Shown piece after piece: positions 49,201 through 52,410 of a stretch of DNA of 53,921 nt. The stretch is taken from contig LJUR01000003.1 in assembly GCA_001304105.1 (NCBI GenBank), positions 1 to 53,921 on the forward strand. Reading direction: 5' to 3'. A program made the position numbers and the translations under genes. Below the pieces are notes generated by a model. The model did no database searches. It was not told the DNA's origin and saw only the letters and a list, made by a program, of their open reading frames with translations. Each line of letters opens with the position of its first letter. Position 1 is the first letter of the stretch. This DNA comes from Deltaproteobacteria bacterium SM23_61. Its GTDB lineage: Bacteria > Desulfobacterota > SM23-61.

Positions 49201-50094
49201 GTTCCCTCCTTAATTCTTTAGATGCGGCCCTGAGCGAGGTAATCTGCGATCAACCGTCAATTCGCCGTCTCTAAGCCAATCATCATCCTAACACTATAAT
49301 CTTTAAGCAAAATTTGTACCAAAAAGATTATTACTCATAATATAATAATTTCATTCATCTTTTTATAAGTTATTGAGGGCTTAAAAAAATATATCACTCA
49401 ATATCATTTTAAGGCCGAATTTGGGCAATAAATACATATCTGGCAATCATCAACTAACTATCTGTAATTATTGAAAATAAAATTTTTTCGGCATGTTTAG
49501 TCATTAAATAGATGATAAATGGTTCATTTCGGATAGTCAAAATTTTGTATTTCTTGCAGATCGCCCCATTAAATTGCTTTTTCAGGCTTGATTCTCTATG
49601 ATTTTATGGAATTCATTCCATATTTTTCTGGGCTTATGGTTATAGAATAGTCTTCTTTGCCCGGTCTAAGTTCATTTCGCAAAAAGGCATGTTACCCTTG
49701 GCCATCAAAGGGGGAAACCTTGAAAAAATTCAATCCTGGATCTGGAAAACCCTCCTCGTTGTCCAGGGATCGGAAGAATTCCCTCCCTTGGCGGGCAAAT
49801 TCGGCGGGACAACTCCCCCCTACAAAGGTTTATCCCCGATCTCCGCTTTACCAATCCTCCAAATAATAGCTTTTTGATTATTTGAAGATGTACAGATATG
49901 AGCGACGATTAGACGAATTTGGCCACCCTCGCCCCCTTTCTTTTATAAAAACCTATTTAGATTCAATCCTTATCAAATCATGCCTTTGGCTCTTCTTTTG
50001 CTCTCTGCTTCCATCAGATTTCAATTCCGGTGGAGAGAAATCCAACCCAACGGATTTTTCCCCTTACCACCGTAGGGAGAAGGGAGAAGAAGAG
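49201..50094. other. About 890 bases without a supportable gene, half of it very AT-rich
   Basis: From about 49250 to 49660 the sequence is strikingly AT-rich (for example 'aatataataatttcattc'), unlike the GC-rich DNA on either side. The second half (49660-50090) returns to mixed composition and includes open frames without ribosome-binding sites. A GCTCTCTGC-type stretch lies near 49990-50010. Promoters for the HAF protein gene must lie here, but no convincing -35/-10 pair stands out. Confidence 0.45.
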
Positions 50095-51528
50095 ATGAGA
50101 TTCATGGGCATGAGACAAATAGGCTGGCTCATATTGGCGGCGAGCGCATTTTTCCTCATGGCTGAACCGATGGTTTGGGGGCAGACCATTTCGGTCACTG
50201 ATTTGGGGACCCTGGGCGGAGACTCCAGTCACGCCCTGGGGGTGAATCTCTCGGGACAGATCGTGGGCACCAGCTCGGTTCCCACGGGGACCCATCACGC
50301 TTTTCTCTGGACTCCGGAAGAGGGAATCCAGGACCTTGGAACCCTGGGTGGAGATTTCAGCGAAGCCCTGGCCATCAACAATAGCGGGCAGATCGTGGGA
50401 GGCAGCTCCACGCAGGAGGGTGTCTGGCGCGCTTTCCTATGGAATCCAGGGGGTGGAATAGCGGACTTGGGCACGCTGGGAGGAAGTTCCAGCCAGGCCC
50501 TGCTGATCAACGACCAGGGCCAGGTGGCGGGGACGAGCGCCACCGGCTCCCCGGGGGTAGAACGTCTCTTCTTCTGGACCCCGGAAGGGGGCATGGTGGA
50601 CACGGGGATCCCGGGGGGACTCGACGGCGAAGTTGCCGCCATGAACAACCACGGCCAGGTCGTGGGGTGGAGTCTGAACGACCCATGGGAAATCCGGGCC
50701 TTTCTCTGGTCTCCCGAGAGCAAAAGGTTCGATTTGGGGGATCTGGGTGGAGGTTACAGCTACGCTTTGGCGATCAATGACCTGGGTCAGGTCGTAGGAG
50801 GCAGCGCCACCCCCTCCTGGTTCATTAACGCTTTCTTCTGGTCTCCCGAGAGGGGAATGGTGGACATGGGCACGCTGGGCGGAAAATTCAGCGAGGCCAC
50901 GTCGGTAAACAACCTGAGCCAGGTGGTAGGACGGAGCTACACCGCCTCCAACACCTACCACGCCTTCTTCTGGACCGCAGAGGGGGGGATGGTGGACCTA
51001 GGCACCTTGGGGGGAATTTACAGCGAAGCGTATTCCATCAACGACCGGGGCCAGGTGGTGGGACGGAGCAAGAATGCGTTGGGCGAGTGGCGGGCTTTCC
51101 TCTGGACCGCCAGGGACGGGATGGTCGACCTTGGAACTCTGGGGGGAAATTACAGCTATGCCCTGGCCATCAACAACCGTGGTCACATAATAGGGGAAGG
51201 CAATAATGTAGAGAAGCAAACCCACGCCATCCTCTGGTCGGTTCCTTCCCTCACCCCCGGGGAACAGGTCGGCGCCCTGATCGAAAACCTGACAAGCCTG
51301 ATCGAGACGGGAAAATTGGGAAATGGGAACGGGAAGCCCTGGATCGGCGAACTCCAAGCGGTTCAAAAAATGATCGAGAAGGGGAAGGCCAAGAATGCAT
51401 GCCAGATACTGGAAGCTTTCTGCCATCAAGTTGAACAGCTGATGAAGAACCGCCGGCTTGACGCCCCGAACGGGGAGGCCCTGATCAGCCAGGCCAACGA
51501 TGTAGGTATTTGCCGGCCGGGACCTTAA
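50095..51528 (+). CDS. Secreted HAF-repeat protein with C-terminal FIMAH-like domain
   Basis: 477 residues from ATG 50095, preceded by AGGGAGAAG; the frame is open further upstream without a better start. The signal peptide (about 1-33) ends near VWG-QT. Eight HAF repeats of about 47 residues follow, each with a core like LGTLGGDFSEALAINNSGQI; repeat 4 is the most divergent (TGIPGGLDGEVAAMNNHGQV). The last 90 residues (GALIENLTSLIETGKLG; KAKNACQILEAFCHQVEQLM) resemble the FIMAH domain found at the ends of exported bacterial proteins. Probably an extracellular beta-propeller-like protein of unknown ligand. Confidence 0.85.
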   Translation: MRFMGMRQIGWLILAASAFFLMAEPMVWGQTISVTDLGTLGGDSSHALGVNLSGQIVGTSSVPTGTHHAFLWTPEEGIQDLGTLGGDFSEALAINNSGQIVGGSSTQEGVWRAFLWNPGGGIADLGTLGGSSSQALLINDQGQVAGTSATGSPGVERLFFWTPEGGMVDTGIPGGLDGEVAAMNNHGQVVGWSLNDPWEIRAFLWSPESKRFDLGDLGGGYSYALAINDLGQVVGGSATPSWFINAFFWSPERGMVDMGTLGGKFSEATSVNNLSQVVGRSYTASNTYHAFFWTAEGGMVDLGTLGGIYSEAYSINDRGQVVGRSKNALGEWRAFLWTARDGMVDLGTLGGNYSYALAINNRGHIIGEGNNVEKQTHAILWSVPSLTPGEQVGALIENLTSLIETGKLGNGNGKPWIGELQAVQKMIEKGKAKNACQILEAFCHQVEQLMKNRRLDAPNGEALISQANDVGICRPGP

Positions 51529-51875: not shown

Positions 51876-51987
51876 TCTGAGGAGCTGGAGCCATCCGGAT
51901 TCCCAGGTTGCATTCCCACAAAAAATAAATTAGCCTGAAAGAAGGGAATTTGGGTTGCCGGTAATTCTGCCTTTTTGGAGGTGGGAA

Positions 51988-52410
51988 ATGAATCCCCTCA
52001 GAACCCTTTTGGCATTCTGCTTATGTCTCTTCCTCTCTGGCATGATGACTTCAACAGCCCTGGGGATGGGAAAAGGCGTAGAGCCCCAAAGAATCACCAA
52101 GGACCAACTCTTCGCCATGTTGGGAAACCCACGGGTTGTAATCCTCGATGTACGCGAGGGAGACTCATGGGAAAAGAGCAAGTTCAAGATGAAGGGGGCC
52201 GTGCGGGAGGACCCCGAAAAGGATATCAAGGACTGGGTCGAAAGATATCCGAAAGACAATACCCTGGTTTTCTATTGCTCCTGACCCAACGAAGCGACCA
52301 GTGCCCGGGTGGCACGGAAATTCCTCTCCAGCGGTTATGAGAAAGTCTTCGTCCTCAAGGGCGGCTGGAAGGAATGGAAAAAAATTAAGCTTCCCATGGA
52401 ACCCAAATAG
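51988..52410 (+). CDS. Exported rhodanese-like protein, probable selenoprotein (UGA99 = Sec)
   Basis: ATG 51988 follows GGAGGTGGG. The frame is open to a TGA at 52282-52284 and, in the same frame, continues to a TAG at 52408, giving 140 residues. A signal peptide (1-26, ending STALG) exports it. The rhodanese domain has the fold markers VVILDVREGDSWEKSKF and VFVLKGGWKEW. The active-site loop is LVFYCS-[TGA]-PNEATSARVA, where homologues carry Cys (C-x-C-P-N-E-A-T). A SECIS-like hairpin lies 13 bases past the UGA. Everything downstream of the UGA is conserved rhodanese sequence, which argues against simple decay. The selenocysteine machinery is not in this window. Confidence 0.82.
52298..52317 (+). 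promoter_or_regulatory. Bacterial SECIS-like hairpin
   Basis: CC-A(bulge)-GTGCC (52298-52305), loop CGGGT (52306-52310), GGCAC-GG (52311-52317). The loop starts 21 bases after the UGA, within the usual range for bacterial SECIS elements, and has a G in its second position. Confidence 0.65.

Follow-up and report, generated by a model that had tools for sequence, protein, structure and literature searches.

Rhodaneses with a Cys-x-Sec (CxU) active-site loop have been described previously. NCBIfam lists them under model NF041203 as 'rhodanese-related (seleno)protein', a 2026 review tabulates the CxU rhodanese as 'rhodanese-like domain-containing protein form 3' (PMC13188914), and it also appears as 'COG0607 form 2, CxU' (PMC9312934). 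The gene described here lies in a window of 53,921 nucleotides, the whole stretch of DNA that was analysed. Its product shares with the NF041203 proteins the CxU loop, one selenocysteine (Sec) and a short, single-domain architecture, and was scored by the model (rhodanese_LYCAU) at 160.1 bits against a cut-off of 115 (E = 1.9e-47). The loop reads FYCSUP instead of LYCAU, and nothing places the protein outside the family. We conclude that the gene is a well-supported added member of the catalogued CxU selenoprotein family, a result that is real but ordinary in kind because the family had already been catalogued as such.

Other Sec-containing or structurally related rhodaneses were compared. TsoB (NF045694, rhodanese/DsbD fusion-like, UxxxxU) is likewise a rhodanese with Sec, but the protein described here lacks the DsbD part and has a different Sec spacing; membership of TsoB was rejected, given its single domain and a score of 27.6 bits (cut-off 805). 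The EanB and GlpE-type rhodaneses have the same fold, and C97 of our protein aligns with Cys412 of EanB; however, EanB carries Thr414 at the position of Sec99, and the GlpE model NF001195 scored our protein at 28.4 bits (cut-off 102). The DedA-rhodanese fusions, exemplified by a Burkholderia protein named 'DedA family protein/thiosulfate sulfurtransferase GlpE', contain a related rhodanese domain that has a PxEATS motif and a loop of the CxC or CxU type, but in these the domain is fused to a DedA membrane domain, and the one fusion that was scanned (L036) reached 86.6 bits, below the NF041203 cut-off. Fusions of DedA with a CxU rhodanese domain, having the same SECIS, were observed at loci L036, L061, L131 and L132, and are perhaps a separate selenoprotein subfamily.

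The rhodanese gene and its surroundings

A single frame runs on the + strand from the ATG at 51988 to a TAG at 52408-52410, and its sole interruption is the TGA at 52282-52284 (Table 1). The Pfam Rhodanese domain (PF00581) was matched over residues 38-132, on both sides of the TGA (E = 7.9e-15; 55.6 bits against a gathering score of 22.2), which bears out the first-pass annotation in its reading of an otherwise open rhodanese frame. The structure model is that of a rhodanese and is confident (pLDDT 90.8), and the closest solved structures retrieved by Foldseek are rhodaneses. Judging from the N-terminal sequence alone, the protein is probably exported.

Table 1. Positions of the features assigned to the rhodanese gene within the window.
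Feature	Positions	Strand	Basis
Shine-Dalgarno-like GGAGGTGG	51977..51984	+	3 nt 5' of the ATG; read straight from the sequence
Rhodanese selenoprotein gene (140 aa if UGA = Sec)	51988..52410	+	Read-through translation, Pfam match, NF041203 score above cut-off
Probable Sec-type signal peptide MNPLRTLLAFCLCLFLSGMMTSTALG	51988..52065	+	N-terminal sequence; predicted helix 3-22
TGC, C97, counterpart of the persulfide-carrying rhodanese Cys (EanB Cys412)	52276..52278	+	Alignment, structure names, invariance (Cys or Sec)
TGA, U99, selenocysteine codon	52282..52284	+	TGA in 79/84 family members; sel machinery in the genome
Bacterial SECIS hairpin CC-(A)-GUGCC / CGGGU / GGCAC-GG	52298..52317	+	Fold, rule compliance, covariation

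On either side of the gene lie the genes of a repeat protein and, in convergent orientation, of a thiolase, and none of its neighbours in the window points to a specific substrate or function. A protein of DLGTLGG...A.INN.GQ(V/I)VG repeats (HAF-like), whose N-terminal region includes a stretch resembling a signal peptide, is encoded at 49882-51528, and the non-coding segment 51560-51880, just upstream of the rhodanese gene, contains repeated phrases of the type TTTATCCGTGTTCATCTGTGTCC. At four related loci (L014, L019, L066 and L067) a gene encoding a 430-aa membrane protein, absent in the window, lies directly upstream of the rhodanese; a match to amino-acid permeases was obtained for L019 only. 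This membrane protein is a possible functional partner of the rhodanese in those relatives.

Relatives and the types of active-site loop

Homologues were detected in 29 of 148 related genomes by a read-through search, and scanning the phylum (395 genomes) with NF041203 found 165, with 60 above the cut-off and one internal TGA in most of the strong matches. Removal of duplicates from the fetched loci left 84 distinct loci with comparable loops, 67 of which are CxU, 12 UxU, 4 CxC and 1 CxS. The residue at the U99 position is accordingly specified by TGA in 79 of the 84, and is Cys in four and Ser in one. The comparison with CxC and CxU rhodaneses proposed in the first-pass annotation thus upheld its placement of the TGA in the active-site loop, but not its statement that relatives carry Cys there, as only a few CxC relatives exist in the set and nearly all members have TGA. 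A pattern-based scan reached just two distant Cys relatives because its patterns carried Cys at the Sec position. The two closest relatives, from the same genus and 59-61% identical over the alignment, have CSU loops, and the same-genus genomes G001 and G002 have TGA at this position too. When U was written as C in an alignment of 44 sequences, C97 and residue 99 (each Cys or Sec), E102, G126 and W130 were invariant. The genome that holds the window also has a second TGA-bearing copy of the family (L056, G000:C123:6503-6832) with the loop LYCAUEFQEISAW, which is present in G001 as well (L057).

The review entry for the CxU rhodanese family has one Sec (PMC13188914). At the UxU loci (L022, L024, L026, L028, L034, L050, L051, L074, L083, L099, L110 and L126) the loop is Y-U-x-U, encoded by UGA-NNN-UGA, so that the position of the persulfide-carrying Cys is also UGA-encoded and the UGA codons are 3 nt apart; one SECIS is present, its loop 27 and 21 nt from the two UGAs. 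The distribution of the UxU form (12 of the 84 loci) corresponds to about six state changes on a quick tree. At L021, L050, L051 and L126, the Sec rhodanese domain and a multihaem cytochrome of the c type (PF13447/PF13435) are joined in one protein of ~545 aa, and the cytochrome part shows weak similarity to hydrazine dehydrogenase. These fusions suggest electron exchange outside the cytoplasm. We somewhat favor the view that the double-Sec form, in some cases cytochrome-fused, is a rhodanese of diselenide/perselenide type coupled to a chain of electron transfer. Neither the UxU nor the cytochrome-fused form was found in the open-licence papers searched, which is no proof of novelty.

Active site and proposed mechanism

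The sequence around Sec is F-Y-C97-S-U99-P-N-E-A-T-S-A-R-V-A, with the codons TGC TCC TGA at 52276-52284. When the protein is aligned with EanB, C97 coincides with Cys412, which is reported to be persulfided (6ktv), and U99 with residue 414, the location of which is given by the T414A entry 6kvy (FYCGAG) and by another EanB chain (FYCGTG). Sec is therefore the +2 partner of the catalytic Cys. The first-pass annotation had placed U99 at the active site; U99 is indeed in the loop, but it is C97 with which the persulfide-forming Cys aligns.

The mature protein would thus present a Cys97-Ser-Sec99 pair in its active-site loop. One could envisage that Cys97 takes up sulfane sulfur as a persulfide, as other rhodaneses do, and that the Sec99 selenol then resolves this persulfide to form a Cys-Sec selenenylsulfide, a step that would release sulfide or hand the sulfur on, after which an electron donor in the periplasm would reduce the bridge again. 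We give this mechanism of Cys97 persulfide and Sec99 resolution about an even chance of being correct. On this mechanism the protein would be less a plain sulfurtransferase than a persulfide/thiol redox enzyme of the periplasm, a view supported indirectly by the redox-type CxU/CxC/UxU pair, the likely export and the relatives fused to multihaem cytochromes. The protein could instead be a Sec-containing selenium carrier that delivers perselenide, given that a rhodanese perselenide that might deliver selenium was reported (Ogasawara et al. 2001, as cited in PMC5877670). We consider this role improbable, since the predicted signal peptide puts the protein away from the cytoplasmic SelD and the CxU/UxU/CxC pair and cytochrome fusions are a better fit to a redox function.

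Covariation in the SECIS hairpin

The hairpin downstream of the UGA, with its bulged A, starts 13 nt after the codon and is composed of 5+2 bp and a CGGGU loop that starts 21 nt after it. This structure, which the first-pass annotation had drawn, is the predicted one, with an energy of -8.0 kcal/mol alone and -10.0 kcal/mol for 44 nt. The published limits for a bSECIS are an apical loop of 3-9 nt, an upper stem of 4-16 bp, a G in the first two loop positions, a spacing of 16-37 nt and an MFE of -7.5 or lower (PMC13188914), and the hairpin is within all of them (loop, stem, spacing of 21 nt, energy). As a single sequence, however, it is no more stable than its dinucleotide shuffles (z = 0.18), and an argument against a pseudogene from the hairpin alone, as made originally, is therefore weak. 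For this reason we turned to family-wide synonymous controls, with which the argument gained strength beyond chance. The bSECIS-type rule was satisfied in 75 of the 79 TGA-bearing genes (95%), compared with 41% expected when codons were redrawn synonymously, and the mean hairpin energy across the 79 genes had a z of -1.06 relative to synonymous recoding.

The clearest result was obtained at two positions, 18 and 30 nt downstream of the UGA, where 42 of the 79 genes have T-A, 33 have C-G, 3 have T-G and 1 has C-A. The Fisher p is ~1e-17, a value that overstates the independent events, as the sequences share ancestry and vary in GC content. The compensatory codon pairs in the stem are AGT..GCA in 40 cases and AGC..GCG in 30, with 3 discordant; where Ser is written AGT, Ala is GCA, and where Ser is AGC, Ala is GCG, so the changes are synonymous and leave the protein unaltered. 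Base composition alone would not yield near-perfect pairing at just these positions, and such third-position covariation shows selection on RNA structure. In L126 the Ser is replaced by Ala, yet the stem remains paired (CCGCC/GGCGG). No such hairpin was detected in the Cys/Ser homologues L053, L055 and L122 of the same phylum, and an Rfam scan at the hairpin gave no match besides a chance one on the opposite strand.

Selenocysteine machinery and the reading of the UGA

The genome that holds the window is a draft of 4.24 Mb in 286 contigs, with 88% completeness and 7% contamination. The search for selA, selB, selC and selD that had been suggested found all four, including selB and selC, the absence of which had been named as evidence against Sec. 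SelA scored 635.7 bits (cut-off 268) and SelB 369 bits (cut-off 242), both without an internal TGA; SelD (L064, G000:C181) scored 373.6 bits (cut-off 125) and has an in-frame TGA in GAGUASKL; and a tRNA-Sec with anticodon UCA (TCA in the gene) is present. The best match to FdhA, the formate dehydrogenase alpha subunit (L135, G000:C250), has one in-frame TGA. The sel genes and the rhodanese are very likely in the same cell, which falls short of strict proof because of the incompleteness and contamination of the draft.

In the 41 codons after the TGA, the window and the two same-genus copies differ at codon positions 1/2/3 by 10/2/20 and 8/4/17, with a dN of 0.14-0.15 and a dS of 1.4-2.1, so near saturation that the dN/dS ratio is approximate. 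The excess of third-position differences indicates purifying selection on the part downstream of the TGA, in agreement with the conservation noted there at first reading. It could be argued that the TGA is a pseudogene lesion or a sequencing error in a Cys codon (TGC/TGT), as the assembly is a draft of many contigs and the energy of the hairpin is no better than that of shuffles. We regard this as very unlikely: the presence of the same TGA in 79 of 84 family members across many genomes refutes it for practical purposes, and the selection on the downstream codons, the SECIS covariation and the complete sel machinery also oppose it. Sec insertion is generally inefficient, and some truncated product is therefore to be expected; nevertheless, it is scarcely credible that the UGA serves chiefly to end translation and that the 98-residue product is the working form, as the 41 codons under purifying selection encode conserved parts of the core structure (helix 100-114, strand 120-123, GGW). 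Genome-wide reassignment of UGA, e.g. to Trp or Gly, could account for the in-frame UGA in SelD and FdhA, but it can be dismissed, as these two are commonly Sec proteins, no internal TGA occurs in SelA or SelB, and relatives swap the residue for Cys and not for Trp or Gly.

We conclude that the UGA at 52282-52284 almost certainly codes for selenocysteine, as had been proposed on first reading; the sel genes, the SECIS covariation and the homologues with TGA at the same position all support this. There is very little doubt in our minds that the gene product is a single-domain, exported rhodanese and that the hairpin at 52298-52317 directs SelB and Sec-tRNA to decode this codon, and a Sec-decoded, exported CxU rhodanese is, with high probability, the best explanation overall.

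A standard gene caller would end the gene at residue 98, and reading of the raw sequence recovered a real selenoprotein gene. The covariation provides clean evidence for the SECIS of an uncharacterised family. Finally, relatives of the UxU and cytochrome-fused kinds allow a test of what benefit selenium brings to a rhodanese, namely extracytoplasmic persulfide reduction rather than sulfur transfer.
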